Shown here piece after piece: positions 2,771 through 34,670 of a stretch of 58,602 nucleotides of DNA; positions within the stretch are counted from its first letter, which is position 1; every line of letters starts with the position of its first letter. This stretch comes from a virus: the IMG/VR virus record IMGVR_UViG_3300047498_000072, positions 1 to 58,602 of that record. One strand, 5' to 3'. A program made the position numbers and the translations under genes. Under the pieces are notes generated by a model. The model did not search any database and was not told the DNA's origin. It worked only from the letters and a program-made list of their open reading frames with translations.

Positions 2771-3160
2771 ATGCCCAGCTCAAACGATTCGGCCAAGGTC
2801 GCCGGCCGCCTTCAGGTCCAACAGACGGGGGCCAAGCGCGCGAACGGCGGGAAGCCGCTGATGCACCTGATCCCCACCGAGGCCGTCATGGCGCTCGCAG
2901 AGGTCCTCACCGTCGGCGCCCAGAACTACGGGGCGCGGAACTGGGAGAAGGGGCTCACCATGAGCTCCACGTGGGACTCGCTGCAGCGACACCTCTTCGC
3001 CTGGTGGTCTGGTGAGAACCGAGATCCCTTCTCGGGGATGCCGCACCTGTCGCACGCGCTCTGCAACCTCGTGTTCATGGTCACCTTCGAGCGGCGCATC
3101 GAGAAGGGGACCTTGCCGGCTAGCCTCGACGATAGGCCTTGCAGCCTCGACAGGCCTTGA
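2771..3160 (+). CDS. dATP/dGTP diphosphohydrolase-like protein (MazZ/DUF5664 type)
   Basis: This 129-residue protein matches the phage dATP/dGTP diphosphohydrolase N-terminal family: KPLMHLIP, GAQNYGARNWEKG, RHLFAWWSGE and PHLSHALCNL appear in the family order. Members hydrolyse dATP/dGTP-type substrates to monophosphates. In some phages a MazZ member supports 2-aminoadenine (Z) DNA together with PurZ. No PurZ or DatZ gene is visible in this window, so a nucleotide-pool role is the safer call. It lies in the plus-strand accessory operon. Confidence 0.8.
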   Translation: MPSSNDSAKVAGRLQVQQTGAKRANGGKPLMHLIPTEAVMALAEVLTVGAQNYGARNWEKGLTMSSTWDSLQRHLFAWWSGENRDPFSGMPHLSHALCNLVFMVTFERRIEKGTLPASLDDRPCSLDRP

Positions 3161-3451: not shown

Positions 3452-4219
3452 TTGAAACCCGCAAAGAGGGCTCGGACCGAGCTTCCACCGTTCGCGGTGG
3501 CGGCGCTTGAGGTCCGGGCCCTCGCTCTTTCTGGCAAGATGGCGCGAATGGAAGGCGTACTCGCTGAATCGCTCCGCATCCTGAAGACGGCTCGCGCGAA
3601 GAGCGCATCGATCAACGTCGCGTTTTCTGCCGGGAAAGACTCCCTCGCCGTCATTGATCTGTGCTCCCGGACGTTCGACCGAATCGACGCGTTCTTCATG
3701 GAGATGGTCCCGGGGCTCGAGTGCGTAGAGGTCGGCCTCGCGTGGGCCGAGCAGCACTACGGAGTGAAGGTACGTCGGTACCCGCACTGGATCCTTGGGC
3801 GCTGCCTCAAGGGAGGCATCTACTGCAACAACTGGCTGTCGACCGACGACATCCCCGACGTCGGCGTGCGCGACATATACAACGCCGTCATCGCTGACAC
3901 CGGTATCCCGCTGATCGCCACCGGCGCGAAGCGGAAGGACTCGATCTGGCGCAAGCGCGGGCTATCGAACAATCAGGCCTACGACGACGTCGTTTACCCA
4001 ATCGTCGGATGGAATAAGCTCGACGTGCTCTCGTTCCTGAAGATGCGCAACATCCCGATCCCGAGCTCGAGCGGCGCGAGCGCTACCGGCGTGGACCTGA
4101 GCACGCCGAGCCTGCTCTGGCTTCACGACACCTACCCGGCGGACTTCGCGAAGGTGTGCGAGGTCTTCCCTTACGCGCAGGCCGTCGTCTTCCGCCGAAC
4201 CTTCTACGGCATGACGTAG
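3452..4219 (+). CDS. PP-loop adenine-nucleotide alpha-hydrolase (PAPS-reductase-like)
   Basis: The protein has 255 residues from the TTG at 3452. Starts at GTG 3497 or ATG 3539 are equally possible and would leave a more usual N-terminus before the P-loop. The PP-loop is FSAGKDS (about residues 58-64), preceded by a hydrophobic strand. Family members activate substrates by adenylylation or act as PAPS reductases; DndC-like phage versions have been linked with DNA modification. The ParB-like gene follows 11 nt later, a recurring phage pairing. Confidence 0.8.
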   Translation: MKPAKRARTELPPFAVAALEVRALALSGKMARMEGVLAESLRILKTARAKSASINVAFSAGKDSLAVIDLCSRTFDRIDAFFMEMVPGLECVEVGLAWAEQHYGVKVRRYPHWILGRCLKGGIYCNNWLSTDDIPDVGVRDIYNAVIADTGIPLIATGAKRKDSIWRKRGLSNNQAYDDVVYPIVGWNKLDVLSFLKMRNIPIPSSSGASATGVDLSTPSLLWLHDTYPADFAKVCEVFPYAQAVVFRRTFYGMT

Positions 4220-4222
4220 ACT
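4217..4222 (+). promoter_or_regulatory. Leaderless-type -10 (TAGACT)
   Basis: TAGACT overlaps the upstream stop codon and ends 8 nt before the ATG at 4231. No Shine-Dalgarno is present. Confidence 0.45.
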
Positions 4223-4230
4223 CCGCGCGC

Positions 4231-5142
4231 ATGAGCGACGACACGGGCGAGACAGACCTGGCCGGCCGCAAGGCTCGTGTGAACGCGGCTGTCGACGGCG
4301 CGAACCCGAAGACCGAGGCGCTCATGAAAAACGCCTTCGACGTCTTCGAGGTCGTCGACATGGACCGGCGCGAGCTCAAGGAGGCGACCTATAATCCGAG
4401 GCAGCTCGACGAGAAAGCGAAACGCAAGCTCCGCACGGGGATCAAGAAGCTCGGGATGCTCGGCCCGGCGTGCATCTGGAACAAGCGCACCGGGCGCCTG
4501 GTCGGCGGGCACCAGCGGATCGGACAGCTCGACGCCCTGAACGGAACGGCGGCGTACACGCTCAAGGTGGCCGTCGTGGACCTCGACGAGAAGGCCGAGC
4601 GCGAGGCGAACATCCTGCTCAACAACCGGGAGGCGCAGGGCGACTGGGACATCGGGAAGCTCGGCGAGATGTTCCGCGAGACGCCACTCGACCTCGACGC
4701 GACGGGCTTCGACGCAGCGGACATCTACAAGATGTTCGGCGATTCGCCGTTCCAGAACCGCGAGGACAACGCGCTCGACGACCTCACGGACAGACTCAAG
4801 GCCTCGCGCCAGCGGTACTTCGACCTGCTCAAGGTCTCCGGCAAGCGAGACGGGGATCACTTCTACACGGTGGTCGTCTTCAAGGACACGGAGGACCGAG
4901 ACGCGTGGGCGACTGCGCTTGGCCTCGACGAGAACCGCTTCCAGGACGGACGCACCCTTCGTCGGATCTTCGAGGCGCAGGCCTTCCAGATCGCAGAGCA
5001 GGCCGACCTCGTCGCCAGGAAGCGCCTCGAGACCATGCCGGTGACGCTCCTCGCCGAACGGCTCGCCGAGCGTCTGGAGGCCACAGGGCGTGGCAGCGAG
5101 GCGATCGTCGAGCAGCTACGTGCGCTGTTCGCCAAGCGGTGA
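4231..5142 (+). CDS. ParB-like (ParB/sulfiredoxin-fold) nuclease-domain protein
   Basis: This is a 303-residue protein. Residues about 45-125 carry the ParB N-terminal (ParB/Srx) pattern: YNPRQLDEKA, an alternating strand region, then GGHQRI with the GxxR nucleotide-binding signature, and VVDLDEKAEREANILLNN. The C-terminal half is helical and lacks an obvious ParB helix-turn-helix. Phage ParB-like proteins next to PP-loop enzymes are common; reported activities for the fold include CTP/ATP binding and nicking. The start at MSDDT was chosen for the -10 placement. Confidence 0.8.
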   Translation: MSDDTGETDLAGRKARVNAAVDGANPKTEALMKNAFDVFEVVDMDRRELKEATYNPRQLDEKAKRKLRTGIKKLGMLGPACIWNKRTGRLVGGHQRIGQLDALNGTAAYTLKVAVVDLDEKAEREANILLNNREAQGDWDIGKLGEMFRETPLDLDATGFDAADIYKMFGDSPFQNREDNALDDLTDRLKASRQRYFDLLKVSGKRDGDHFYTVVVFKDTEDRDAWATALGLDENRFQDGRTLRRIFEAQAFQIAEQADLVARKRLETMPVTLLAERLAERLEATGRGSEAIVEQLRALFAKR

Positions 5143-8244: not shown

Positions 8245-8676
8245 ATGAACGTCTCGGTGGAGCGGCGCCGACGGACGCTCGTGTCAAGACTCGACGAGTG
8301 CTCGCGTGTTCAGTATTCGTCGGGGGTGCACGGCTCGCTCACACCGATGGACCGGCTGGACGCAGCTCGAGCGCTGCTCGCGGTCGCGCGGCTCATGTGG
8401 CGCGTCCGGAGGGCTGCGGCCATCTACGGGACCGACGGCGCCGAGGTCGACGCTCGCCGCGTCGCTGGCATCGGTCGCGAGATCGGCGAAGCGATCGCAG
8501 CTCTCGAGACCGCGAGCTCGGACGGCGAGAGCGCGAAGGCGGTCGCTCGCCTTGATCGCGCGAGCCTCGCGCTGTGGACCGAGGCGCAGCGATGCTCCCG
8601 AACCGAGGGCATCTGCAGCCTGATCGGTCAAGCACGCGTCGGGATAGAGCAACGCGTGCAGACGACCGGCCAATGA
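8245..8676 (+). CDS. Hypothetical helical protein
   Basis: The protein has 143 residues from the ATG at 8245. In-frame starts at GTG 8326 and ATG 8347 (MDRLDAARALL) are equally plausible, since the first 34 residues are Arg/Ser-rich and unstructured. The body is two or three helices (LLAVARLMWRVRRAAA; EIGEAIAALETA; ASLALWTEAQR) with Cys at the end. The stop overlaps the HicB-like gene. No family recognised. Confidence 0.5.
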   Translation: MNVSVERRRRTLVSRLDECSRVQYSSGVHGSLTPMDRLDAARALLAVARLMWRVRRAAAIYGTDGAEVDARRVAGIGREIGEAIAALETASSDGESAKAVARLDRASLALWTEAQRCSRTEGICSLIGQARVGIEQRVQTTGQ

Positions 8677-8918
8677 TGGAGGCGCGCACGTTCGTGGTGG
8701 TGGTCGAGCCGGCTGTCCTCGACGCCGACGAGGGCGGCTGGCACGTCCACCTGCCCGAGATCGAGGGCTGCCGCTCGTGGGGTGCGTGCGTCGAGGAGGC
8801 GCGGGCGAACATCCGCGAGGCGCTCAGCGCCCGCGCTGACATCCTCGGTCCCGAAGCTGCAGCAATCGCAAGGACAGCGATGTTCGTCGAATCGGAGTGC
8901 CCGGTCGGCGTGCCGTAG
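8673..8918 (+). CDS. HicB-like antitoxin-fold protein (orphan)
   Basis: This 81-residue protein has the HicB pattern: a short strand (FVVVVEPAVL), then GGWHVHLPEIEGCRSWG, then a helix EEARANIREALSARA. HicB proteins neutralise the HicA mRNA interferase and often repress their own operon. There is no HicA-like small basic partner on either side and no added helix-turn-helix or ribbon-helix-helix tail. It is therefore an orphan, perhaps an anti-toxin against a host HicA. It starts in an ATGA overlap. Confidence 0.7.
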   Translation: MMEARTFVVVVEPAVLDADEGGWHVHLPEIEGCRSWGACVEEARANIREALSARADILGPEAAAIARTAMFVESECPVGVP

Positions 8919-9137: not shown

Positions 9138-9568
9138 ACACTTGGGACGAGGCGTCGAGTTGGCTTCGACGAGTGTTCCGGCGCCCGCGGCCGAGCGATC
9201 CCCCTCACCTCGTCGAGGCGTACAAGGCGCTCGTCGTCGAGGTGGTCGGCGTCAAACTCGAGCTCGCCTCTGCGCTGCGCGAGGCGGACCGCCTCCGCCA
9301 TGTTCAGGCCATCGAGGGCGACTATGTTTGCCCCGATTCGCTTCGCGCTGACGAGGCCGAGAAGGAGCGCGCCCGGGCGCGCCGCGCGCTCGTCTTTGCC
9401 CACTGTGATCTCCGCGCGCTGGCCGGGCTCGCCGGCAAGGGATCGGTCGCTCTCCGCGTGAATGAGTTGCAGGGCTTCGACGGCGAGTGGGAGCGGAGGA
9501 CGGTCGGCGAGCTTCGCATGCTCAGCGCTCGCGACATCCTCGACCGTGCGGAGAACGAGCGTTCGTGA
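9134..9568 (+). CDS. Hypothetical coiled-coil protein
   Basis: This is a 144-residue soluble protein. Residues about 30-95 are long charged helices (ALVVEVVGVKLELASALREADRLR; ADEAEKERARARRALVFAHC) compatible with a coiled coil. The C-terminus has a compact segment ending LSARDILDRAENERS. The start is the ATG in an ATGA overlap with the lipoprotein stop, and the end is a GTGA overlap with the next gene. Function unknown. Confidence 0.65.
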   Translation: MNTWDEASSWLRRVFRRPRPSDPPHLVEAYKALVVEVVGVKLELASALREADRLRHVQAIEGDYVCPDSLRADEAEKERARARRALVFAHCDLRALAGLAGKGSVALRVNELQGFDGEWERRTVGELRMLSARDILDRAENERS

Positions 9569-9840
9569 CGAACCGCGACGGCGCATTGAGCGCGCGGCTC
9601 GACCTCGGCGGCGGCGTCAGCGCGGAGATTCGCCGTCTCGACGGCGTTATTCATGGCGTCGCGTATTGGCACACGTGCAACGGCGTGTACGACTCGGAGG
9701 ACTTCATCAGCGTCAAGCCGGAGTGGCCGGATGGGTGGGAGCTCGTGAGCCTCGAGCCGCTCACGCTGTCTCCGTCGCTGCTCTGCCGGGCGTGTGGCCA
9801 TCACGGCTTCATCCGCAATGGTCGCTGGGAGAATGTATGA
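9565..9840 (+). CDS. Small protein with CxxCG..HGxI motif
   Basis: This 91-residue protein starts at GTG in a GTGA overlap. The N-terminus is beta-rich (GGVSAEIRRLDGVIHGVAYWH). The C-terminus reads LSPSLLCRACGHHGFIRNGRW, a pattern seen in several small phage proteins (possibly related to DUF6527) where Cys/His residues may bind zinc. Family assignment is tentative. It overlaps the following gene by 4 bp. Confidence 0.6.
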   Translation: MTNRDGALSARLDLGGGVSAEIRRLDGVIHGVAYWHTCNGVYDSEDFISVKPEWPDGWELVSLEPLTLSPSLLCRACGHHGFIRNGRWENV

Positions 9841-10151
9841 GCAAGCACGCCTGCTTCATGATCGAGGACACCGGCATCGCGCGCCAATTCCTGAGGCGGT
9901 ACGTGAGCTCGCTGAAGGCCTCCTGCCCCTTGGCGTTTGGCTACCACAACGCTCTCGTCCCGTTCGACATGGCGCCGGCCAAGCTCGAAGCCAGCCATCG
10001 AAGGAGGTCATGCGGGAGCGGTGAGGGTGCTAGGCGCCGACCGCGCCTCCGACGTCCGACGGTAGCTCCCAGAACCCGAGAGCGCCCCGACAGGGAACCG
10101 GCGTGTCCAGGGGGTCGACGTCGCGGAAGACGAGCCCCCACGCGCCGGTAG
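9837..10151 (+). CDS. Hypothetical protein, possibly frameshifted at its 3' end
   Basis: The frame gives 104 residues. The first 60 (ACFMIEDTGIARQFLRRYV, SCPLAFGYHNALVP) look like a real protein. The remaining 45 are Arg/Pro/Gly-rich noise that runs 122 bp into the convergent ASCH gene. Near the switch, an AAGGAGGTC sequence precedes an ATG that opens only a four-codon ORF. I infer either a natural convergent overlap or a frameshift near 9990. Confidence 0.5.
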   Translation: MSKHACFMIEDTGIARQFLRRYVSSLKASCPLAFGYHNALVPFDMAPAKLEASHRRRSCGSGEGARRRPRLRRPTVAPRTRERPDREPACPGGRRRGRRAPTRR

Positions 10152-10470
10152 CTCGCCAAGGGCTTGCCAAATCCACGCTAGGGGGAATGACTGCGTCGAG
10201 GGTAACGACCGCGACGACCGCGCCCCTTGGGGCGGCGCGCGCGCGGCTTGGAGCCAGGCGCGCCCACCGAGCGAGCCCCGCGCCGTCAAGCCAGGCCTCA
10301 GCGGATGCGTCGAAGCCCTGGCCCGCGTGGATCGCGATCCGCTGGCCGACCAGCCGGCGCGCCGTCGCGACTTGCGCGGGGACTCGGTCCCATGGCCGAT
10401 TTTCCACGCGCTTCGGACCGTGCGCCACGAACCACGCCCATGGCTGGCGAAGGGTAAGCCCCTTCATCAC
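10030..10470 (-). CDS. ASCH-domain protein
   Basis: This 146-residue protein carries the ASCH signature: MKGLTLRQPWAWFVAHGPKRVENRPW, then RLVGQRIAIHAG, then AVVAVVTL and GFWELP at the end. ASCH domains have a PUA-like fold and are proposed to act on RNA or modified nucleosides; some are amidohydrolases for N4-acetylcytidine. It is the last gene of the minus-strand moron-like block and overlaps its upstream neighbour by 4 bp. Confidence 0.8.
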   Translation of the reverse strand: MMKGLTLRQPWAWFVAHGPKRVENRPWDRVPAQVATARRLVGQRIAIHAGQGFDASAEAWLDGAGLARWARLAPSRARAAPRGAVVAVVTLDAVIPPSVDLASPWRATGAWGLVFRDVDPLDTPVPCRGALGFWELPSDVGGAVGA

Positions 10471-11111
10471 GCGGCCTTGTCTCGCGCGTGCTCGCGCGCG
10501 AGGGAGCGGAGCGCGGAGCGGACCGCCTCGAGGTAGTCGTCGAGGCCGTCGATGTCGTCGACGCCGTCCTCGGTCGCCTTGTCCAGCTCTGCTTGCTGGA
10601 TGACCGCGAGCCGAGCGTCGGAGGTCCGCGCGGTGATCCCGATCTCGCGCCCCACGGCGGCGAGCCGGGCGTCCCCGCTCCCCCGTTCGAGCGGCGCGTA
10701 GTAGTCCGACGCGGCCCAGATGACGAGCGCCTCCCCATCGTCCCCCATGAGGTCACACCTGCGCTCGATCTCAGCGTGCGCGGCGATCGCGTCGTCGGTG
10801 TATCGCGCGACGACGTTCTGCCCGTCCCACTCCCTCGAGTAACCGGCCACGACCCTCTCTGCCAGCGGAGCGAGCTCCGCTAGGAGGCGGTTCGCGGCGT
10901 CGGCGCGGAGAGGGCGGGAGAGTGCGACGCGAAGGACGTGCTGATGGTACACGTCGAACGGGACGCCGCTCCCAACGACGGGATCCGGGCTCGCGGTGAG
11001 CGACCCTTCTCCGCGCGCGTCGAGCTCGACGTGACAGGGCTGAGGCGCCGACTGGCGCGGGTACCTGAGGTAGAGCTCGGTTCCCTTCACGGGCTTGATG
11101 TCGATGGCCAT
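10467..11111 (-). CDS. Hypothetical protein of the MoxR/VWA block
   Basis: This is a 214-residue protein starting at MAIDIK, with GGGGAGA as SD just after a leader hairpin. The N-terminus is beta-rich (TELYLRYPRQSAPQPCHVELDARGEG...), followed by a helical, acidic C-terminal half (LAELAPLAERVVAGY; DGVDDIDGLDDYLEAVRSALRSL). Similar proteins in high-GC phages and plasmids have no assigned role. Its place next to the VWA gene suggests cotranscription. Confidence 0.65.
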   Translation of the reverse strand: MAIDIKPVKGTELYLRYPRQSAPQPCHVELDARGEGSLTASPDPVVGSGVPFDVYHQHVLRVALSRPLRADAANRLLAELAPLAERVVAGYSREWDGQNVVARYTDDAIAAHAEIERRCDLMGDDGEALVIWAASDYYAPLERGSGDARLAAVGREIGITARTSDARLAVIQQAELDKATEDGVDDIDGLDDYLEAVRSALRSLAREHARDKAA

Positions 11112-11140
11112 GCTGACTTCTCCCCGGGGCCCATTCGAGG
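11112..11140 (-). promoter_or_regulatory. Leader hairpin plus SD
   Basis: On the minus strand a GGGCC/GGCCC stem lies just upstream of a GGGGAGA Shine-Dalgarno, 8 nt before the ATG at 11111. The arrangement matches the leaders at 14335-14364 and 15673-15703. Confidence 0.45.
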
Positions 11141-11207
11141 CCCTCACGCGGCGAAGCCCGGCCCCTCGGGTGAGAGGTCGGGCGGAAGTGTGGAACGGCG
11201 CCGCGGC

Positions 11208-12374
11208 TCAGGCGGCGCGCCCGAGAGAGACGGCGGAGCGGGGGTCGATCATGTCGGGCCGACCGAGCTCGACGTAAGAGACGGCGCGCGCGCGTAGCGG
11301 GTGGTCAGCGGGGATCTCACACTCGATCGCGACCGTCCAGAGACGCGCGCCGATCTTCGCCGCGTCGTCGAGCGCGGCTGAGACGCCGGTCCCGCCGTCG
11401 ATCCCGTCCGTCACGAGGACCAGGTCGGCGCCCGCGTCACCCTTCGCCGCGAGCTCACGGATCTTGTCGACGCTCGCGCGGACGGCGCGCGCCGTGTCGG
11501 TCCCCCCCGAAAGGAACGAACGGATCATCGCGAGGACCGAGGCGGGCGACGAGGGGTCGAGATCGGCGACGACGACGGAAGTCGACCAGTGAACCACCGC
11601 GATGCGGCGACGGTCCGCGACGGCGACGCGCGCGACGGCGATGGCGGCGGCCTTCGCCCATTCGTTGCGCGCGCAGCTCATGGACCCGCTCTCGTCCAGG
11701 GCCAGAACGATCGGTCCCCGCGCCTGGACACGGTCGCCGCGGACGGCGTACTGCGTCGCTCGGCGCGTGCTCACGCGGTAGAGGGCTGCCCCCTCGAGAT
11801 CGGGGTCCATGAGCTGCGCGTACTCCGAGGGGAGTAGGCGCTCGACGTCGCCTCCGAGCTCGACCGAGTAAACCTCGGCCGGCGCTTGGGGGACTCTCCT
11901 GGAGTTTGCGCCCCTCATCGCGGCGAACATCCGCCCCGCGAGCCTGGCGATCCGCGCGACGCGCCCGTCATCGGCCCGAGGGGCCACGTCGCGCGCGACG
12001 TCCCACGCCGCGCTCTCGTCCCACCCGAAGCCCTCGCGGATCGAGGCGACGGCCCCGGCGAGCTCGCCGAACGTCACCCATGCCTCACGCGCGGCCTGGC
12101 GCCGCGCGAAGGGCGTCAGATTGGCCACGAAACGGAGGTCCTCCCACGCGCGCCACATGGTGGCGAACGCGAGCGCGGCGGCGACTTCGTGCGTCACGAG
12201 GGTGGCGGCGTGCTCCTCGGGCGCCGTCTCTCGGAGAGCTTCCGCGAACGTGGTCGGTTCCGGCTCCCCGATCCCCGTGATGGCGTGCCAAATGGCCGCG
12301 GCGTCGGGCGCGCTTTGGGCGACGGCTCGGTCGAGCGCGGCGTGGTGCTTTCGAGCGATGATAAAGGGTCTCAC
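11208..12374 (-). CDS. VWA-domain protein, partner of a MoxR ATPase
   Basis: This is a 388-residue protein. The N-terminal 210 residues are helical. A von Willebrand A domain follows with an intact MIDAS: DESGS (Asp227, Ser229, Ser231), GGTDT (Thr292), and VTDGID (Asp323). MoxR ATPases and VWA proteins work together as metal-dependent, chelatase-like or protein-remodelling machines. The ATPase lies 0.8 kb upstream on the same strand. The GTG start lies 8 nt after a TAATAC -10, so the mRNA is probably leaderless. Confidence 0.85.
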   Translation of the reverse strand: MRPFIIARKHHAALDRAVAQSAPDAAAIWHAITGIGEPEPTTFAEALRETAPEEHAATLVTHEVAAALAFATMWRAWEDLRFVANLTPFARRQAAREAWVTFGELAGAVASIREGFGWDESAAWDVARDVAPRADDGRVARIARLAGRMFAAMRGANSRRVPQAPAEVYSVELGGDVERLLPSEYAQLMDPDLEGAALYRVSTRRATQYAVRGDRVQARGPIVLALDESGSMSCARNEWAKAAAIAVARVAVADRRRIAVVHWSTSVVVADLDPSSPASVLAMIRSFLSGGTDTARAVRASVDKIRELAAKGDAGADLVLVTDGIDGGTGVSAALDDAAKIGARLWTVAIECEIPADHPLRARAVSYVELGRPDMIDPRSAVSLGRAA

Positions 12375-12382
12375 GAGTCAGA

Positions 12383-12410
12383 GTATTAGGCCGCGGCGGA
12401 GCGTTGTCAA
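12383..12410 (-). promoter_or_regulatory. Sigma-70-type promoter for the VWA gene
   Basis: On the minus strand: TTGACA (12410-12405), a 16-bp spacer, TAATAC (12388-12383). It is one of four near-identical promoters in this block and ends 8 nt before the GTG. Confidence 0.8.
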
Positions 12411-12583
12411 CGCTTGTGGCGCGAATATTCGGGTGTCGCGTCGTCGCCGAAACGGACCTCCCGAATGGCGCGACGTGCCTTGCGCGCGCGCTCGTTCTCG
12501 GCGGCGTCGCGGACGAGCTCGTGGAGAGGGCGCGTCCATGCGGGCGTATTTGGCGCGTTGGGCCGAGGCTTGCCGGAGCTCAC
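12407..12583 (-). CDS. Small basic/charged protein
   Basis: This 58-residue protein starts at a GTG that forms a GTGA overlap with the DUF488 stop. The segment RPLHELVRDAAENERARKARRAIREVRFG is a strongly amphipathic charged helix. Its stop codon coincides with the -35 of the VWA promoter. No family recognised. Confidence 0.55.
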   Translation of the reverse strand: MSSGKPRPNAPNTPAWTRPLHELVRDAAENERARKARRAIREVRFGDDATPEYSRHKR

Positions 12584-13104
12584 GCGATCACCTGTCCGCC
12601 GTCGAGCCACCGCCCCCCCTGCCATGAGAGATGACGGAAGCGGAGAGCGGGAAGCCTGGGCTCGATGAGGTGGTGCCGGTGACAGCTGGCCGAACCAGCC
12701 TCCGAACACATGAGGACGAGGCGCCGTCCGCGGGCCACGTCCGCGGCGAGCTCAGCGATCCCCGCGGGCGTCGGACCGGGGGAGCCGCCCCAATCCCCGC
12801 CGAGCCGATCGCCGCGCCACTCGTATCTCGCGCCGAGTAGTGCCGACAGCTCAATGCGCCAAAACCCCCGCCGCGTGTAGATTACGCGGCCCGAGGCGTA
12901 GCGGACCCTAGCCCCCGTACGGACGACGTCCGACTCGACGACGGGCCCCGGGAATGCGCGGACGTCGACGAGGGTGGCGTCCAGCCTCGTCACGAGGCTG
13001 GCGAGGGCGTCGGGCCCATCGAGCGACCCAGGCTCCCGCCGGGCGGCCGACTTGCTTCGCCCGCTGTCCCCGTAACCACAGGTGTAAATACCGGGTGTCT
13101 TCAT
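12580..13104 (-). CDS. DUF488-family protein
   Basis: This 174-residue protein shows the DUF488 layout: an opening IYTCGYGDS strand, a central LVDVRAFPGP motif, YEWRGDRLGG, and the signature CSEAGSASCHRHHLI near the C-terminus (Cys about 135, CHR about 141-143). The family has a conserved Cys/His pocket and an unsettled function. It lies between the ATPase terminator and the VWA promoter, so it may form its own transcription unit with the 58-residue gene. Confidence 0.8.
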   Translation of the reverse strand: MKTPGIYTCGYGDSGRSKSAARREPGSLDGPDALASLVTRLDATLVDVRAFPGPVVESDVVRTGARVRYASGRVIYTRRGFWRIELSALLGARYEWRGDRLGGDWGGSPGPTPAGIAELAADVARGRRLVLMCSEAGSASCHRHHLIEPRLPALRFRHLSWQGGRWLDGGQVIA

Positions 13105-13112
13105 TGACGCCG

Positions 13113-13143
13113 AAAGCTCGCCGTCCCGGGAGGGACGGCGAGC
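13113..13143 (-). terminator. Rho-independent terminator after the MoxR gene
   Basis: A perfect 12-bp stem (13116-13127 with 13132-13143) closes a 4-nt loop and is followed on the minus strand by TTT. It lies between the ATPase stop and the DUF488 start. Confidence 0.75.
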
Positions 13144-13164
13144 GGTTGATCCGGCGGGGGTCGG

Positions 13165-14334
13165 CTAAGCCGTGAGCTTGGGCGACCGGCGAGCGAGCCC
13201 GGCGAGGGCGGGCGAGAGCGAGGCGGCGAGCCCGCTCGCGAGGTCGTCCCATGCCGCCTGAAGCTCCGCGCGGCGATGGCCGATCTTCTGCCCGGCCCGC
13301 TTGCTCACCCCATCGGCGACGATCGCGTCGACCGAGTGCGCCGCCCTCTCGAGGCGTGCGACGAGCGACGGCCGAGCGGCGCGGAGCGCGGCGGCGTCGG
13401 TGGGGCGCGCGTGGTAGGCCGCGAGAGCGTCATCAATCCACTCGAGGGCGGACTTCGCGGGGCCGGCGTCGATCGCGTCGAGGGTCGCTTTGACCTGGAC
13501 GCGGTCTTCCGGCTTAGTCCAAAGCCCGAAACGAAGGACGCGAAAGTCGTCCATCGTGATTGCGGCGCGCCCGTCGAGCCATGCCGAGGCGCGGAGGACT
13601 CGCGCCAGGGCGATCCATCGGCGATCGGACGCGATGACGCCGACGTCCCTAAGCGCCCGCCGGATCTTGACGAGCGCGCGGACGATGCTCTCAGGGAGCT
13701 CGACGGCGGCGACCGCGGCGACCGCGTCGGCCCAGTCCGAGAGGGAGAGGCGGAGCGCCCCCGGCGCGTAGGTGGGCGGCGCGCTCATCAGGTCCGCCCA
13801 GGCGTCGTCTCCCTGGACGTATTCCACGACTTCGCGGACCACGAATCGATCGTAGATGGCCGCGAGGCCATCGTCCGCCGGGAGCTCGTTGGACGCCGCG
13901 ACCGTGAGGCGAAGCGGGATGCGCGCGCCCTGGTAGGTGCGCTCGTTGACCGCGGAAAGGAGCGTGTTCAGCGCCGCGTCCGATGCCTTGAAAAACTCAT
14001 CCAGGAAGGCCGTCTCGACGGCGGCGAGCTTGCCGTCAAGCGCTCGCTCCCAGCGGTCCGCTTTCAGCGCCGAGAGCTTAACCGGGCCGAAAAGGCTGTC
14101 CTCGGTCGAGAACTTCGTGACCAGCGTTTGGAACGTCCGCGCGTCGCTGAAGTGCGAGAGGAAGGCGAGGAATAGGGCCGACTTGCCCGTCCCGGGCGGC
14201 CCGATCAGGAGCGCGTTTTGCCCCGAAAGCGAGGCGAGAACGATCGCTTCGACGGCGGCCTCGCGCTCGACGTAGCTCGCGGCGAGCGAATCTTGGATGC
14301 CCTGGAACGTGGCGCGGATGGTGTCGATCGTCAT
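13165..14334 (-). CDS. MoxR/RavA-type AAA+ ATPase
   Basis: This is a 389-residue protein. Walker A is GPPGTGKS (residues 45-52), Walker B FLDEF (110-114). It is followed by the RavA-type KASDAALNTLLSAVNER and then RLTVAASNELP as the sensor region. The C-terminal 150 residues form helical AAA+ lid and accessory regions. MoxR ATPases remodel or metallate partners together with VWA proteins; the VWA protein is encoded downstream on the same strand. It has its own promoter, leader hairpin, SD and terminator. Confidence 0.9.
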   Translation of the reverse strand: MTIDTIRATFQGIQDSLAASYVEREAAVEAIVLASLSGQNALLIGPPGTGKSALFLAFLSHFSDARTFQTLVTKFSTEDSLFGPVKLSALKADRWERALDGKLAAVETAFLDEFFKASDAALNTLLSAVNERTYQGARIPLRLTVAASNELPADDGLAAIYDRFVVREVVEYVQGDDAWADLMSAPPTYAPGALRLSLSDWADAVAAVAAVELPESIVRALVKIRRALRDVGVIASDRRWIALARVLRASAWLDGRAAITMDDFRVLRFGLWTKPEDRVQVKATLDAIDAGPAKSALEWIDDALAAYHARPTDAAALRAARPSLVARLERAAHSVDAIVADGVSKRAGQKIGHRRAELQAAWDDLASGLAASLSPALAGLARRSPKLTA

Positions 14335-14364
14335 GTCATCTCCCCTTGGCCCCTTCGCGGGGCC
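14335..14364 (-). promoter_or_regulatory. Leader hairpin (GCGAA loop) plus SD of the MoxR gene
   Basis: On the minus strand, GGCCCC-GCGAA-GGGGCC (14364-14348) abuts an AAGGGGAG Shine-Dalgarno before the ATG at 14334. Nearly the same hairpin/SD module precedes the gene starting at 15672. Confidence 0.55.
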
Positions 14365-14385
14365 GGTGCGGTGTCGCGAGAGTTA

Positions 14386-14413
14386 ATATTAGTCGCCGTA
14401 GAAAGATTGTCAA
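14386..14413 (-). promoter_or_regulatory. Sigma-70-type promoter for the MoxR gene
   Basis: Minus strand: TTGACA (14413-14408), 16-bp spacer, TAATAT (14391-14386). The predicted 5' leader is about 45 nt. Confidence 0.85.
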
Positions 14414-14425
14414 CGCTCATTCAAA

Positions 14426-14458
14426 GAAAAACCCCGGCCCCCTCTCGAGGGTCGGGGT
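14426..14458 (-). terminator. Rho-independent terminator after the 382-residue gene
   Basis: On the minus strand, a GC-rich stem with CCCCG/CGGGG ends and a GAGA-type loop is followed by TTTTT. It lies 66 nt past the stop of the gene at 14524 and just before the MoxR promoter. Confidence 0.75.
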
Positions 14459-14523
14459 GATCCCGGGTCACGGCGGCGAGCCCGCGGGGAGGCTACGGCT
14501 CACCCCGTGAATCCCTGCCAAAT

Positions 14524-15672
14524 CTACTCGGCCGCCACCGCGGCGTCGGGCGCCGGGCTCGGCGGCTCCGCCGCGGCTTGGCGGTTCGCCAGGCGCGTAG
14601 CCCAAGCCTTCCGCCCGGCCTCGGCCATCTTGGCCGCGAACGTCCCTGGGACGGGCGCCGCGGCGGATTGCTTGGCCGCGGAGCTCGCGCGCTCCTTCTC
14701 GAGGCTCGCGAGAAACTCCACGCGGATCTCCTCTGCGCGCTCACGGATGCCCGCGGCGAGGTCTTCGAGGACGCCCTGATAGAGATTCGCGCGGGAGATG
14801 ATCCCTTCCGCGAGCTCGACGCGCCGCTCGATCGCGTCGCCCCTCATGCCGAGGCGGGCGGACTCTAGATCCTTCGCGAGGTCGGCGAGCTCGCCGTCGA
14901 GGGCGCCTGAGACGGCCCCCTGCGCGGCGGCGTTCGCGTCGGGCGAGGCGACCATCGGGATGGTGATCGGCGCGAAGCCGAGCTTCGCCAGCCCGCCCGC
15001 GAGGGCGCGCCAGCGGCCGAGCTCTCCCGGGTGGGCGAAATAGACGCCCCCCGCGGCGCGGAGCGGGACCGCGTGAAGCTCGTGGGCTGCCTTCACGAGG
15101 GCCGCCGAGATGTCCTTCGCCGCGACGTGGGTCACGGCGTGGTTGGCCCGATAGGCGATGCTGCGCGCCCACTCGATGCCGACCGGGTCGGGTGTGCCCC
15201 CGGCGACGTCCGCCGCCGCGACGTTGCCGTTCGGATCGACGGACACGCGAGCGACCGAGTCAAACGTGTCGCCCTTCGTGTCGTCACCGCGCGTCACGCG
15301 GTAGACGAACACGGTGGCGTCGACGCTCTCGGCCGCGCGGACGGCGTAGCCCTTAGGCTTGACGCCCTCCGCCGCGGCCCGCGTCAGGGCCGTCTCGGGC
15401 GCGAGCGCGTCGGGGATGAGCTTCGCGAGATCCGCCGCGCCGAAAAGCGCCTTCGCGTCGGCGCGCGCGACGTCCACCCCCTGCGCGTTCCAGCTCAGGA
15501 GGAACCCGATGTCCACGCCGCCCTTCGCGGTCGTATCGGCCGCGACGGCGGCGAGCTTGTCGGCCGCCTGGCCGTTCCCTTTCTCGTGAGAGTCGCGCGC
15601 CGGCTTGGGCGCCGGCTTCGCGGGCTTGGGGGCGGCGGCGGGCTTGGATGCGGTCTTCGTGGTCGTCTTCAT
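14524..15672 (-). CDS. Conserved protein of the MoxR block (possibly DUF6744-like)
   Basis: This is a 382-residue protein. A Lys/Ala/Pro-rich disordered N-terminus (about 1-35) is followed by an alpha/beta core with VDATVFVYRVTRGD (about 117-130), AAGGVYFAHPGELGRWRALAGGLAKLG (about 210-235), then long acidic helices. The last 70 residues are basic and Ala-rich. It resembles proteins found beside AAA+ ATPase genes in high-GC phages, perhaps DUF6744; this is from memory and unconfirmed. It has its own promoter, a long structured leader and its own terminator. Confidence 0.65.
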   Translation of the reverse strand: MKTTTKTASKPAAAPKPAKPAPKPARDSHEKGNGQAADKLAAVAADTTAKGGVDIGFLLSWNAQGVDVARADAKALFGAADLAKLIPDALAPETALTRAAAEGVKPKGYAVRAAESVDATVFVYRVTRGDDTKGDTFDSVARVSVDPNGNVAAADVAGGTPDPVGIEWARSIAYRANHAVTHVAAKDISAALVKAAHELHAVPLRAAGGVYFAHPGELGRWRALAGGLAKLGFAPITIPMVASPDANAAAQGAVSGALDGELADLAKDLESARLGMRGDAIERRVELAEGIISRANLYQGVLEDLAAGIRERAEEIRVEFLASLEKERASSAAKQSAAAPVPGTFAAKMAEAGRKAWATRLANRQAAAEPPSPAPDAAVAAE

Positions 15673-15703
15673 GGTGTCTCTCCCCTGGGCCCCTTCGCGG
15701 GGC
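15673..15703 (-). promoter_or_regulatory. Leader hairpin (GCGAA loop) plus SD
   Basis: On the minus strand, GCCCC-GCGAA-GGGGC (15703-15689) is followed by an AGGGGAGA Shine-Dalgarno before the ATG at 15672. Confidence 0.55.
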
Positions 15704-15717
15704 GTTGCGTTTCGTGC

Positions 15718-15756
15718 GGCGAGCGCCGCCCCCTCATCTAGGGGACAGAGCTCGCC
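15718..15756 (-). promoter_or_regulatory. Structured 5' UTR element
   Basis: Within the roughly 107-nt leader, GGCGAGC (15718-15724) pairs with GCTCGCC (15750-15756), enclosing a second CCCCT/AGGGG hairpin (15730-15744). A cis-regulatory RNA or merely a stable leader is possible. Confidence 0.4.
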
Positions 15757-15786
15757 CCGCGATATGAGCGGGACGTCAGGCTGATA

Positions 15787-15814
15787 ACATTAGTCGTCGC
15801 GAACTTGAAGTCAA
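15787..15814 (-). promoter_or_regulatory. Sigma-70-type promoter for the 382-residue gene
   Basis: Minus strand: TTGACT (15814-15809), 16-bp spacer, TAATGT (15792-15787). It lies immediately downstream of the stop of the preceding gene (15818). Confidence 0.8.
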
Positions 15815-15817
15815 CGG

Positions 15818-16120
15818 CTAGAGGCGCGTTCGGAGTCCGGTGTTCGCCTCGAACGCCTGGCGGAGCTCCGCCGCGTGGATGTCGGAGACGCGCGAGAGGA
15901 GGCGAGCCCCGCCGTTGTAGAGCGAGAGGGTGTAGGTGTCGATCGGATCGAGGTCGACCACGACCAAGACGACCCCCTTCGGGGAGATGCGCTGAGGTAG
16001 CCGGAATCGAATCGACGCGCTTTCGCCCGCGAGGAAGTCACGCGCGCCGGTCATCGCGATGAACGCGTTCCCGCCCAGTTGAGAGAGGATGGTTTTTGCG
16101 GCGGTCATGTTCTCGTTCAC
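15818..16120 (-). CDS. Conserved 100-residue phage/plasmid protein
   Basis: The opening MTAAKTILSQLGGNAFIAMTGARDF is a widespread motif in small phage and plasmid proteins of unknown function. It is followed by a beta-rich core (ASIRFRLPQ, VVLVVVDLDPIDTYTLSLYN). Translation probably starts at the GTG at 16120, 7 nt after TAATGT (leaderless), although an in-frame ATG lies four codons later. It is the first gene of the minus-strand block. Confidence 0.75.
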   Translation of the reverse strand: MNENMTAAKTILSQLGGNAFIAMTGARDFLAGESASIRFRLPQRISPKGVVLVVVDLDPIDTYTLSLYNGGARLLSRVSDIHAAELRQAFEANTGLRTRL

Positions 16121-16127
16121 AGGGTGA

Positions 16128-16155
16128 ACATTAGTCCGCGGCGCGCTGTTGTCAA
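16128..16155 (-). promoter_or_regulatory. Sigma-70-type promoter, first gene of the minus block
   Basis: Minus strand: TTGACA (16155-16150), 16-bp spacer, TAATGT (16133-16128), ending 7 nt before the GTG. Confidence 0.85.
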
Positions 16156-17927: not shown

Positions 17928-19424
17928 GTGGACGCTGCCGCCGCACTCGCTCTTGAGGCCCATCGCAAGCGAATCGGCGAACAGGCCGGCGCATTCATCC
18001 GGCCCGCGGACATCGTCCCGAACCCCGGGCCGCAGAGCGCCTTCCTGCGCTGCCCCGCCACCGAGGTCATGTACGGAGGCAGCGCCGGGGGCGGCAAAAC
18101 GATAGCGCTCCTACTATGGGCGATGCGGCACATCGGAGTGCCTGGGTACCGCGCGCTTCTACTACGTCGACAGTTCCCACAGCTACGTCGAACCTTGCTC
18201 CTGAAGAGCAAGGATCTTTATCCGTATGCGGGTGGAAGGTGGGTGGCTGGCGAGAAGACGTGGATCTTCCCCAGCGGAGCAACGATCGAGCTCGGAAGCG
18301 CCGACAAGGAGTCGGATATCGAGAGGTATCTGGGGTCCGAATACGCAGCGTGCGGGTTTGACGAGGCCACGTACTTCGCTCCCTACCAGTTCCGCTACAT
18401 GCTCTCGCGTCTTCGCACGACCGTCCCCGGGCTAAATACGCAGCTCCGGCTCGCGACGAACCCGGGCGGCCCATCGCACGACTACTTTCTCCGTCGGTAC
18501 GCGCCGTGGCTGTACCCGCCAGGCGAACCCGGGTGGAACGGCCCCTATCGCAAGCCCGGGGATGTCCTCTGGTTCCTGCCGATTCGCGACTCGGACGAGG
18601 AGCGCATCGTCCCAGCGTTCACGCCAGGCGCGACCTCGAGAACCTTCTTCGGCGCGAGGGTGACGGATACGCCGCAGCTCGCGGGGACGCAGTACGAGGC
18701 AAACCTCAACGCGCTCGACCGAGTAACGCGCGCTCGGCAGAAGGATGGCGACTGGATGGCGCGAGAGGCCGCGGGCGAGATGTTCAAGCGTGAGTGGTTC
18801 GATGTCGTCGACGCGTCGCCGCTCGACGTGTTCTACCGGGTCCGGTACTGGGACCTCGCGGGCACCGCGCAGAAGAACGCGACGGCGTCGAGCGCGTGGA
18901 CGGCGGGCGTGCTCCTGGCGTGCACCCACTCGGGCCTGATGTTCGTCGAGGACATGGTCCGCGAGCAGCTCTCGCCTGGCGAGGTCGAGGACACCATCGC
19001 GCGCACCCAGGCGATGGATGAGGGGCGCTTCGGTGTCGACGCGAGGGCCTTCGAGACGATCATCGAGCGCGACCCGGCGCAGGCGGGGAAGTTCCAGGCC
19101 TGGTACTTCGGGACGCGGATGGGGATCAAGGCCATCGCTCCCGTCGGCGACAAGGTCGCGCGCGCCAGGATCCCGAGCGCGCAGGTCGAGCACGGGAACA
19201 TGAAGCTCGTCCGAGGGCGATGGAACGAACCCTTCCTTCGCGAGGCCGAGAGCTTCCCCGATACGACGAAGGACCAGGTCGACTCGCTCTCCGGTGCTAC
19301 GCGGCGCGCGATGGTGAAGCTCTACCGCGAGCTCAAGCGCAACGGACGCGACCCGCGGGCGCTTCTTCGCATCAAGGTGGTTGCTCGGATCGGGGAGAAC
19401 GCCGCGCCCGACGAGGAGGACTAG
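17928..19424 (+). CDS. Terminase large subunit
   Basis: This is a 498-residue packaging motor. The ATPase domain has Walker A GGSAGGGKT (50-58) and Walker B CGFDEATYF (Asp145-Glu146), with ATNPGG as the coupling motif (about 176-181). The C-terminal RNase H-like nuclease has RYWDLAGT (Asp309), a central acidic region and KDQVDSLSGA (about 437). Start is GTG. It translocates DNA through the portal and cuts the concatemer. Confidence 0.95.
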   Translation: MDAAAALALEAHRKRIGEQAGAFIRPADIVPNPGPQSAFLRCPATEVMYGGSAGGGKTIALLLWAMRHIGVPGYRALLLRRQFPQLRRTLLLKSKDLYPYAGGRWVAGEKTWIFPSGATIELGSADKESDIERYLGSEYAACGFDEATYFAPYQFRYMLSRLRTTVPGLNTQLRLATNPGGPSHDYFLRRYAPWLYPPGEPGWNGPYRKPGDVLWFLPIRDSDEERIVPAFTPGATSRTFFGARVTDTPQLAGTQYEANLNALDRVTRARQKDGDWMAREAAGEMFKREWFDVVDASPLDVFYRVRYWDLAGTAQKNATASSAWTAGVLLACTHSGLMFVEDMVREQLSPGEVEDTIARTQAMDEGRFGVDARAFETIIERDPAQAGKFQAWYFGTRMGIKAIAPVGDKVARARIPSAQVEHGNMKLVRGRWNEPFLREAESFPDTTKDQVDSLSGATRRAMVKLYRELKRNGRDPRALLRIKVVARIGENAAPDEED

Positions 19425-19485: not shown

Positions 19486-22400
19486 GTGAGCACTCCCCGC
19501 AGCCGAGTCGGGTCGCCTTCGGGCGGCAGAAGCCAGGGACGTTTCCTTCAGCCGGCGCCGCGCGGAGCAGAGCGCGCCGCCGCTCCGCGCGTCGGGAGCC
19601 CGAGCGACCTCCTCGACATGAGCGCGATCACCCGCAGCCTCTTCGCGCGGCACATGCCGTATGCCGAGAAGTTCCGGCCCTTCTACGGGCGGATCGACAT
19701 GCGGATGATCCAGGACGTTCTGGCGATGGCCGACACCGGGATCATGACCCCGATCGCCGACCTCGGGCGCGAGAGCTCGTCCCTCGACCCCCACCTCCTC
19801 ACCGTCGCGCAGAAGCGGTTCGGCGCGCTCGCTGCGCTCGACTTCAAGGTCGACGCCGTGGCCTGCACGAAGGCAAACGGACTCGACCAGAAGATCGCTG
19901 ACGAGGTGGCGGATGACGTCCGCGCGATGCTCAAGGGCATCACGAACAGGCAGGATGCGATCTACGACCTCGCGTGGTCGCTCTTCGACGGGCGCGGAGC
20001 ACTTGAGATCGACTGGGTGCGCGTGAGCGGGCGGTCCCCCTATCAGCCCGTGTCTCTCGACTGGATCCACCCGCGCAGGCTCGCGTTCGGACCAGACCGC
20101 GAGCTACGCGTGATCGACACCTTCACGTCGGGTCGCGGATGGTGGAGCAGGAACGGCTTCGCGCTCCGCGACTACCCGGGGAAGTTCGTCACGTGGGAGC
20201 CGCGCTACTTCAGCGACTACCCGGAGCGAGAGGGGCTGCTGCGGCGCTCGATGTACTGGTCGCTCTTCAAGCGCTTCTCCGCGCGCATGCGGATGGTCCT
20301 CACGGAGCTCTTCGCGATCCCGTGGCGCGTTGTCGAGTTCCCGGCGACGACCGAGTTCCACGAGACGAGCTATGAGGACCTCGACGAGGCCGAGGACCGC
20401 GCGGAGGCCCTCGGCGGGCAGAACACCGTCGCGATGCCGCCGGGCGGGAAGCTAAATGTCGAGTGGCCGGGGGAGAACAGCGGGCAGCTCTTCGAGCTCA
20501 CGCGGACAGGCGTGAACGAGGAGATGAGCAAGCTCTGGCTCGGCAACGTGGGAACGACCGACGCGATCCAGACCGGGATGGGCTCGAACGTCGCCACGGT
20601 CCACAAGGGCGAGCAGAACATCTACCTCACGCGCGACGCGTTCGGCGTGGGGGCGCGCATCAAGGCGTGCCTCGTCGACGTGTGGGTCGTGCTGAACCGA
20701 GGGGCCGATTACCTCCGCTACTCGCCGACGTGCACCCTCACGGCCGAAGACGAGGCGGACCGAACGGCGGAGCAGAACGCGCGAGGGACGGCCATCGCTC
20801 TTAGCGTCCCGGTGTCGCTCACCGACTACTACGAGAGCGCGCAGATTGAGCCGCCCGGAGAGGACGAGCCCGTGATCGTCGGCGTGAACGACCCGACGAC
20901 GGGCAAGGTCACGACGAAGATCGTTTACCCGAAAGACTGGAGCGGCGCGCGCATCGGCGAGACTCCGCCCCCGGCAGGTCCGCCCGGCGGAGCGCCCCCG
21001 GCGCCTGGTGGCTCGACGCCACCGCCGAGCTCGGATGGTGGGAGCACTCCGCCGTCTGCGGGTGGCCCCCCAGCTGTGCCGACCGCGCCGAATCCCCCCG
21101 CGGCACCCGCGAGCACGAAGGCTCCAACGGCTCCGACTCCCCCGAAGCCCCCGACCCCCACCGTCGCTCAGCCGGGTGACGTGCACTCGCACATCAAGGC
21201 GGGACTTGGCCTCGAGCGGCCGGCGCCGACGCCGAGCGGGACCGAAGACGAGCTCGTCGACAAGCACACGCGGGAGGCGAGCCGACTCACGGCTGGCTGG
21301 TGCCGGACGATGCTCGATGCCGTCGACGATCAGGGGACGCTCGCGGACGCGAAGGTCGCGCTCTCGCGGGCAGCGGCGGCGCTCCCGCTCGATGCCTTCG
21401 CGCGCGGCATCGAGCGCGCGACCGTGACATCGCTCGCGCTCGGCGCGATGGACGCGGCGTACCAGGCGGAGCACGACCACGAGGAGGATGCGTTCCGCCC
21501 GAGCTTCGCGGCAGACAACGCGCGGACGAAGGACCGAACACTCATCCTCGGCGCGGGGGGCGTGCTCGGCGCAGTTCCTCCGATGGTCCAGGGCTTCACC
21601 CTGAAGCCTTTCAACGAGGCCATCGCCGAGTTCATGGGCAAGGCCGTTCTTCCCCGGCATCTCTTCGAGCGGCTGACGTCGGAGGCGAAGCGGCGCGCGT
21701 TCACCATCGCGGGCCTGTCGCAACAGACGATGCTCGACGTCGCGCACGACGAGCTCACGAAGAGCATCGTGGACGGCGACGACCTCGCGACGTTCCGCGA
21801 ACGGCTGGCCGAGCGCTTCGACAGCAACGGATGGACGCCGCTCAACCGGAGCCACGTCGAGACCGTCTTCCGAACCGCGATCAATGGTGCGTACAACAGC
21901 GGTCGGCACGTGCAACAGACGCAGCCCGCCGTGCTCGCGGCGCGCCCCTACTGGCAGATCCGCGGCGTGAAGGATGACCGGGCGCGCCCGGAACATGCCG
22001 CGGCGAACGGGAAGGTGCTCGCTGCAAGCGATCCTTTCTGGACGCGCGCGCCGCTCCCTTGGGGGTTCAACGAGCGTTGTACCAAGACCTCGCGTTCGGC
22101 AGCGGACCTCGCCAGGCTCGGCCTCTCGGTGTCCAACGGCGCAGACCTGAAGGGCCTCCCGGACGAAGACTTCAAGGCCGGGGGCGGCTTCACGTTCGAC
22201 CGGAGCCTCTTCGGCTACGACGGCGTGCGCCTCGCGAACGGGCGCAGGATTGCGGGCATCCCGCGCTTCTTCGGCGGCACGCTTCTCGTCCTCGTCGACC
22301 GTCCCCAGGGAACCGTCGAGACGGGGACCGCGAAGGACGGCACCCCATGGTCGCGGACATGGTCCTTCGACGGCGGCGAGCTTCCTGGCACGTCGGCCGG

Positions 22401-33724: not shown

Positions 33725-34029
33725 GTTGCACCTCCAGACGTTTGCTCTCGGACCCCGGTGAAGCCCACGCGGCAACCGTCGCACGCGTCGAGCTTCCCCC
33801 GGTCTTGGTTCTTGAGGCAGGCCGACTCGATGATCGGCAGCTTCAGGCCGGGGCAGGCAACGGTCGCCTCGGCCCAGACCTTCGCGTCATGGACCCACCC
33901 GGGCGGCGCGCCGTAGATCTCGGCCTCGTCGTGTTCGGATGGTTCATCAGGCGTCTTCGGCACCGGCGCGAGCTCGACCATCCAGGCGAGCCTCGCGTCG
34001 AGCCCGCGCGGTTCTCCGAGGCGAATCAC
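33721..34029 (-). CDS. Small Cys-containing protein
   Basis: This 102-residue protein starts at GTG in a GTGA overlap with the methyltransferase C-terminal gene. It ends with CLKNQDRGKLDACDGCRVGF, a four-Cys arrangement (with a Cys near 71) that might bind zinc. The Pro/Glu-rich middle is probably loop. Function unknown. Confidence 0.6.
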   Translation of the reverse strand: MIRLGEPRGLDARLAWMVELAPVPKTPDEPSEHDEAEIYGAPPGWVHDAKVWAEATVACPGLKLPIIESACLKNQDRGKLDACDGCRVGFTGVREQTSGGAT

Positions 34030-34670
34030 GAAGACGCCCAGAGGTGAAGTTGCGGACTGCGCGCGCGGACGTTCGCGGCGACGAGCGCCTCCGCGATCTG
34101 ATTGCACACGCTGTTGCCGATGAGCTCGATCTCGGCCGTCTTCGTGCGCGCGGCAGAGAGATCGTAGGAGTCATCGAACCCCTGGGCTCGCGCGAGTTCG
34201 CGCGAGCCGAACATCCGCATCCCGACGTCCTCCACGCGCCACGTGGCGCCCCCAAGCTCAAGCGTGGGCTCGCGGTCGCGGGGCCAGCCCGCGTAGCGCA
34301 CGAGGAGTGCCTTCACGAGGCCCACGTGCTGGCCGCCTCGCTTACCCCCAGCGGTGATCGTCGGGAAGGGCTCGCGAACGTCAGAGCCCGCGCCCGCCGA
34401 CCCGTAGAACTTCGTCAGCCACGCGGCGACGAGGCTCGTGTGGTCGCGCGACGTGACGGTGCCCACCGGGCGGTCGAGCGTCCGCGCCGCAGTCGGGTGA
34501 CCGTTCGGGCCCCCGTAGTGAGGAACGATGATCGGCGCGACGAGGTGCCGGTCGTCGGTCGCGCACACCGTCGAGAGCGGCTGGGTGAGCGGGTAGCTCT
34601 TTTCGGGCACGCGTTGCGTGAGCAGAAACCTGCCCTCGCGGACGATGACGCCGACGACGACTTCCCTCAC
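34026..34670 (-). CDS. C5-cytosine DNA methyltransferase, C-terminal part
   Basis: This 214-residue protein corresponds to the target-recognition and C-terminal regions of phage C5-cytosine methyltransferases: LTQPLSTV, RPVGTVTSRDHTSLVAAWL, EPFPTITAGG, GMRMFGSRELARAQGF (motif IX/X region) and the closing motif X IGNSVCNQIAEALV. Motifs I-VI are absent here and found 1.3 kb upstream on the same strand. Start GTG overlaps the preceding stop by 4 bp. Whether the two parts assemble is unknown. Confidence 0.8.
   Translation of the reverse strand: MREVVVGVIVREGRFLLTQRVPEKSYPLTQPLSTVCATDDRHLVAPIIVPHYGGPNGHPTAARTLDRPVGTVTSRDHTSLVAAWLTKFYGSAGAGSDVREPFPTITAGGKRGGQHVGLVKALLVRYAGWPRDREPTLELGGATWRVEDVGMRMFGSRELARAQGFDDSYDLSAARTKTAEIELIGNSVCNQIAEALVAANVRARSPQLHLWASS

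Follow-up and report, generated by a model that had tools for sequence, protein, structure and literature searches.

A RavA-ViaA-like MoxR-VWA pair with a DUF6744-like third partner in an antisense block of a contractile-tail phage

What use might a phage have for a protein-remodelling machine of the RavA-ViaA kind? This question is raised by a virus record of 58,602 bases (IMG/VR record IMGVR_UViG_3300047498_000072), the whole of which is the window analysed here, and in which seven main minus-strand genes lie at positions 10030-16120 between plus-strand genes on both sides (Table 1). An earlier note on this DNA had described the block as a moron-like insert encoding a RavA-type MoxR ATPase, a VWA protein and a conserved partner, and had proposed that it serves a prophage as a host-modifying or anti-phage system. 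The antisense layout and the three proteins stand as described; the proposed role does not fare as well. The reading favoured here, in which about as much belief as doubt is placed, is that the block encodes a phage-borne RavA-ViaA-like remodelling machine, with a DUF6744-like protein as its third part and, more tentatively, a client in phage DNA replication or recombination.

Three proteins and a common set of expression signals

The 389-residue MoxR protein is an AAA+ ATPase whose best family match is RavA (NCBIfam RavA, E 3e-51; RavA in the PDB, E 6e-47), and its Pfam matches comprise AAA_lid_8 (9e-17) and bpMoxR (2e-41), the latter a domain also matched in the MoxR proteins of Moorella and Aphanizomenon phages. 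Its Walker A (GPPGTGKS), Walker B (AFLDE) and SNE motifs are intact. Its branch in a MoxR tree is long and its placement unsupported. The 388-residue VWA protein finds its best match in ViaA (E 2e-18) and retains a complete metal ion-dependent adhesion site (MIDAS), composed of DESGS, GGTD and TDG, as had been claimed. The N-terminal domain of ViaA (PDB 7ugc) is matched by the profile of the VWA family (E 2e-17); the window protein is without the first part of this domain and alone yields no PDB match. In common with Escherichia coli RavA-ViaA, the phage thus carries a RavA-subfamily MoxR with AAA_lid_8 and a ViaA-type VWA protein with an intact MIDAS. It differs in that the VWA protein is shorter, the genes are phage-borne and not in one operon, a DUF6744-like third partner is present and the C-terminal LARA domain of RavA was not found, giving no match in the MoxR protein at E up to 1.

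The third protein, of 382 residues, has no match to Pfam DUF6744 (PF20529) at the family cut-off of 27 bits. Taken by itself, this would suit the view that the protein is an orphan in an accessory block of unrelated genes clustered by chance. However, a profile-profile alignment with DUF6744 is full-length and co-linear over 266 columns at E 4e-8, where 17 decoys, the reversed sequence included, gave E 0.04-0.8. Searched alone with phmmer, the 382-residue protein also reaches a viral homologue (locus L036, E 6e-19) and one from Anaeromyxobacter (locus L128, E 1e-17), both of which are neighbours of other MoxR genes, and intermediates found by phmmer clear the Pfam cut-off in 15 of 16 records tested. 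A profile grown from the protein recovers all of the plasmid and Moorella phage DUF6744 proteins at E < 1e-69, to which the window protein is 17-19% identical. On these sequence comparisons it is best regarded as a divergent DUF6744-like protein, clearly related to the family and not a formal Pfam member.

The AlphaFold2 model of this protein, built with 59 aligned relatives (mean pLDDT, the predicted local distance difference test, of 90, and 93.7 for the N-domain alone), predicts an alpha/beta N-domain with a conserved R-x2-GGVYF segment, followed by a three-helix bundle. With Foldseek, neither the whole model nor the N-domain alone matched a PDB entry at E <= 0.001, and the family sequence profile searched against the PDB gave a best E of 0.014, to a coiled coil only. 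VIA-align matches to BAG, CorA and spectrin (Z up to 11.8) concern the C-terminal helical bundle alone, and a likeness to these proteins was rejected as the scores fall within the chance range of helical bundles; the best Z for the N-domain is a weak 5.8. End-to-end matches in the viral library are confined to uncharacterised phage proteins and gp25 of halovirus HVTV-1, whose gene 25 (locus L188, 9815-10966) encodes a DUF6744 homologue (E 8e-30). The lack of a counterpart among solved structures does not prove that the modelled fold is new. No paper mentioning DUF6744 was found in the open-access literature, subscription papers lying outside the search.

The genes of the three proteins are also joined by their expression signals. 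The promoter pattern TTGACA-N16-TAATRT was searched across the whole window with up to two mismatches; two copies are exact and two have a single mismatch, every one of them lies within the block on its minus strand, and none was found outside the block. Four copies at no more than one mismatch compare with 0.02 expected for the window in Markov simulations, which bears out the earlier description of four near-identical promoters. They precede the genes for a 100-residue protein, the 382-residue protein, MoxR and VWA, such that each of the latter three has its own copy of one promoter. A 24-nt leader with a hairpin and ribosome-binding site precedes the DUF6744-like gene (CCCCGCGAAGGGGCCCAGGGGAGA) and recurs before the MoxR gene (CCCCGCGAAGGGGCCAAGGGGAGA); the sequence CCCCGCGAAGGGGCCNAGGGGAGA is identical at the two sites and has just these two copies in the window, with none expected. 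In promoters 1 and 4 the -10 box ends 8 and 9 nt ahead of the GTG start codons of the 100-residue and VWA genes respectively, and the mRNAs of these two genes are therefore predicted to be leaderless.

Recurrence of the trio in viruses, plasmids and cells

The distribution of these genes was surveyed with one MoxR alignment as query, by which 80 loci were taken from viral contigs (IMG/VR) and 80 from bacterial and archaeal contigs at one genome per species; a trio was defined as DUF6744, MoxR and VWA within 6 kb. A VWA gene lies within this distance in all 80 viral loci, with DUF6744 as well in 63, as against 63 and 12, respectively, of the 80 cellular loci. This difference in trio frequency (Fisher p 2e-16; 5e-12 once near-copies are removed) is that of a query alignment built largely from trio members, with the best 80 matches used in the viral and cellular collections alike. 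Among 69 non-redundant trio loci the three genes share a strand in every case, in the order DUF6744-MoxR-VWA in 42 and MoxR-VWA-DUF6744 in 22, and the MoxR and VWA genes are adjacent in 55. The DxSx(S/T) motif is kept in 84 of 87 VWA proteins from trios. Cellular trios are found mainly in Myxococcota and Actinomycetota, and the trio is also present on plasmids of Streptomyces, Nocardia, Brevibacillus and Alicyclobacillus and in Moorella phage MTATph1. The same three proteins are thus encoded close together in these plasmids and in MTATph1, where they usually form one compact run, whereas in the window each has a promoter of its own and the MoxR and VWA genes are parted by one for DUF488.

The earlier note had made recurrence of the gene set elsewhere a check on its proposal; such recurrence holds for the trio and not for the remaining genes. 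DUF488, whose assignment is marginal (22.9 bits against a Pfam cut-off of 22.2), was found in just 4 of the 50 virus records with a trio and was for that reason rejected as part of the system. The ASCH-like protein falls under the Pfam cut-off (15.5 against 21.2 bits) and is a clear member of phrog_3193. The 226-residue protein is an orphan, with no relatives in family, phrog and viral-contig searches. For none of the three was a clear relative seen beside the trio among the fetched loci, the best match for ASCH being E 0.034, and single-sequence scans of viral contigs gave no close relatives of the block genes. Judged by these comparisons, all three are passengers and not parts of the system. 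Their presence speaks for chance assembly of the block; with the homology of the 382-residue protein and the recurrence of the trio, however, that explanation is largely refuted and is now hardly credible.

Two further readings of the block had been put forward before. In the first, the phage proteins would work on membrane or respiratory complexes of the host in the manner of RavA-ViaA, to the benefit of infection or tolerance. RavA and ViaA are indeed the closest matches of the MoxR and VWA proteins, the E. coli pair acts on the inner membrane, fumarate reductase and complex I (PMC9489729, PMC10585395, PMC3893208), and separate promoters are compatible with early or constitutive expression. 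However, 53 cellular MoxR-VWA loci obtained with the same query lack DUF6744, such that the phage system stands apart in its third component, and it is without a detected LARA domain; a host-directed role is accordingly considered distinctly unlikely.

In the second, the block would be a moron-borne conflict system, active in superinfection exclusion or anti-phage defence. MoxR-vWA ternary conflict systems are known from multicellular bacteria and, like the trio, combine MoxR and vWA with a third conserved protein; the four types described by Kaur et al. 2020, which include none with DUF6744, have VMAP, iSTAND, FtsH or a beta-propeller as that protein (PMC7159879). In the window the third component is DUF6744-like, no variable effector domain was seen, and a Pfam scan of all block proteins contained no VMAP, iSTAND, FtsH or vWA-borne propeller. 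Against the PADLOC 2.0 defence models no block protein gave a match better than E 0.0015, which leaves the anti-phage proposal without support from known systems. The prophage state assumed with it was also not borne out: searches of the record for a tyrosine integrase, a serine resolvase and an rve transposase found none of these, and there are no end repeats, so that lysogeny is an assumption. The single-gene promoters are moron-like, and four block genes have a promoter and terminator of their own, the second terminator being weak; yet the trio recurs as a module of several genes and is not a solitary cargo gene. A conflict role is, if anything, a shade more doubtful than a host-directed one.

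Phage MoxR-VWA pairs are already known, for example in Bacillus phage 0305phi8-36 (PMC2147016) and haloviruses (PMC7911831), and have so far been noted singly and either linked to virion assembly or given no assigned role. A third partner that is constant across phages and plasmids, and rare beside cellular RavA-ViaA, offers a handle on the purpose of the mobile-element version. It is quite possible, although held with somewhat less confidence than the reading of the block itself, that DUF6744-MoxR-VWA is an undescribed type of machine of viruses and plasmids across several bacterial phyla, a further MoxR-vWA ternary system whose third protein has a fold without a counterpart found among solved structures, and which would remodel a nucleoprotein complex on which mobile elements depend.

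Possible mode of action and client

By analogy with RavA-ViaA and NorQD, the MoxR protein would assemble as an AAA+ hexamer on which the VWA protein docks, the latter presenting a client through its MIDAS site and N-terminal region. ATP hydrolysis would then twist or stretch the client or a linker, such that a protein complex is remodelled or a metal inserted; in the cryo-electron microscopy structure of NorQD, the pore of the MoxR hexamer is where the VWA partner is engaged, and metal insertion is brought about by remodelling of the VWA linker (PMC13036017). DUF6744 may be the constant partner that confers specificity, either as the client or as a client adaptor, and the three components, each from its copy of one promoter, would be produced as a matched set. 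DUF6744 is a natural bait for identification of the client, and a Pfam family of unknown function becomes a component that is open to test and has a confidently modelled structure.

Gene neighbourhoods suggest, weakly, that the client belongs to phage DNA replication or recombination and not to the virion. The identified genes that recur beside trios encode a PD-(D/E)XK nuclease (13 loci), AAA_24, DUF669, a ResIII helicase, uracil-DNA glycosylase, RecU and DnaN, and nearest-neighbour tallies agree, with exonucleases, primase, helicase, clamp and clamp-loader among them and few structural genes; a few lysis genes and one tail gene also appear. An alternative is that the machine is a virion-assembly chaperone, which remodels or matures a head or tail protein. 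There is precedent for this in Acidianus two-tailed virus, where the RavA-like MoxR p618 interacts with the VWA protein p892 and is a virion component assigned to tail development (PMC4124505), and the same role has been proposed for the MoxR-vWA chaperone pair of group 2.2 jumbo phages (PMC7824862). In the window, too, no more than 2 kb separates the block from the terminase gene. The precedents differ from the window system: p618-p892 belongs to an archaeal spindle virus, has no reported DUF6744 and shows low sequence similarity (26% over 42%), and in the jumbo phages the vWA is fused to a metallopeptidase with no DUF6744 partner described. Furthermore, the block lies on the opposite strand under promoters of its own, the recurrent neighbours identified elsewhere are replication and recombination genes, and the trio occurs on plasmids, including a mobilizable Nocardia plasmid, which would need no virion if truly plasmids. 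A replication or recombination client is narrowly preferred because of those neighbours, and virion assembly is considered unlikely, if deserving of a more serious hearing than the host-directed and conflict roles.

Several observations weigh against the preferred client and against a strict partnership of the three proteins. The link to DNA metabolism depends on neighbour tallies made without a formal background control, in which the majority of neighbours are unannotated and some are lysis or tail genes, and in the window itself the trio adjoins small genes and the terminase, not replication genes. A terminase was detected, using three models, in only 14 of 50 trio-carrying IMG/VR records, so that plasmids or fragments may be included among the carriers. 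Three large phage contigs and HVTV-1 have DUF6744 with no RavA-type MoxR, which makes the partnership less than absolute; in HVTV-1 the MoxR and VWA genes belong to another subfamily, at a distance of about 15 kb from gene 25. The window VWA protein also has a shortened N terminus relative to its counterparts in other trios.

Ribonucleotide reductase was entertained as a metal-loading client, an idea that arose from the Moorella phage and HVTV-1, where its genes lie near DUF6744; it was rejected, being found in only 7 of 50 trio records.

Further features of the block and its phage

Table 1. Features of the antisense block, with positions in the window
Feature	Position	Strand	Basis
Promoter 1, TTGACA-N16-TAATGT, exact	16128-16155	-	
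Perfect palindrome (GTTCAC-GTGAAC), overlapping promoter 1 and the start codon of the 100-residue gene	16115-16129	.	
100-residue protein, phrog_9437 (unknown function)	15818-16120	-	
Promoter 2, TTGACT-N16-TAATGT, one mismatch	15787-15814	-	
24-nt leader before DUF6744-like gene	15679-15702	-	
DUF6744-like protein, 382 residues; alpha/beta N-domain and C-terminal helical bundle	14524-15672	-	homology and model
Rho-independent-like terminator, GC hairpin then TTTTT, after DUF6744-like gene	about 14427-14459	-	sequence and fold
Promoter 3, TTGACA-N16-TAATAT, exact	14386-14413	-	
24-nt leader, second copy, before MoxR gene	14339-14362	-	
RavA-type MoxR AAA+ ATPase, 389 residues	13165-14334	-	
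Very stable 12-bp hairpin, MoxR-DUF488 gap, z -5.5	13116-13143	-	fold
DUF488 protein, between MoxR and VWA genes	12580-13104	-	
58-residue small open reading frame, overlapping the DUF488 stop (GTGA) and ending within promoter 4	12407-12583	-	
Promoter 4, TTGACA-N16-TAATAC, one mismatch	12383-12410	-	
ViaA-type VWA protein, 388 residues	11208-12374	-	
226-residue protein, probable start ATG 11111	10467-11147	-	
ASCH-like protein, phrog_3193, overlapping the 226-residue gene	10030-10470	-	

The two strong terminators described earlier are of unequal quality, that after the DUF6744-like gene being good and the very strong hairpin of the MoxR-DUF488 gap being followed by a poor T tract, only CTTTC. 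The palindrome GTTCACCCTGTGAAC could, speculatively, be an autoregulatory operator of the 100-residue gene, whose relatives are scattered among phages of Rhizobium, Rhodobacter, Pseudomonas and others. The 58-residue open reading frame had no family match in the Pfam scan, and an Rfam search gave no match. A HicB-like antitoxin fragment (8574-8918) and a DUF6527 protein (9487-9840) lie directly upstream of the block.

The record as a whole is that of a contractile-tail phage that resembles known phages only slightly. It has no direct terminal repeats, and the large terminase gene (17928-19424; phrog_979, E 1e-95) is at best 37% identical to those of known phages; other genes encode a head protease, major head protein, tail sheath, tape measure and Mu-like baseplate proteins. 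A 2006-residue fusion of a Mu-type portal, a MuF-like domain and an InPase polyvalent domain is encoded at 19486-25506. The nearest relatives of the DUF6744-like protein, mostly from Myxococcota together with that of locus L036, and a GC content of 68% give an indirect hint of the host.

A second minus-strand block is located at 34.0-38.9 kb, and antisense orientation is therefore not peculiar to the block at 10030-16120. Within it, a cytosine-C5 methyltransferase (34026-36448) is divided between two minus-strand open reading frames, the N part at 35936-36448 and the C part at 34026-34670, and the frames that intervene include one that is BtpA-like (34982-35740). Elsewhere, at 3452-5142, a PAPS-reductase-like gene overlaps a ParB-like/DNA-methyltransferase-associated gene, and an N-terminal domain of dATP/dGTP diphosphohydrolase (2771-3160; PF18909, E 8e-29) is a possible sign of a nucleotide-pool or base-modification strategy.

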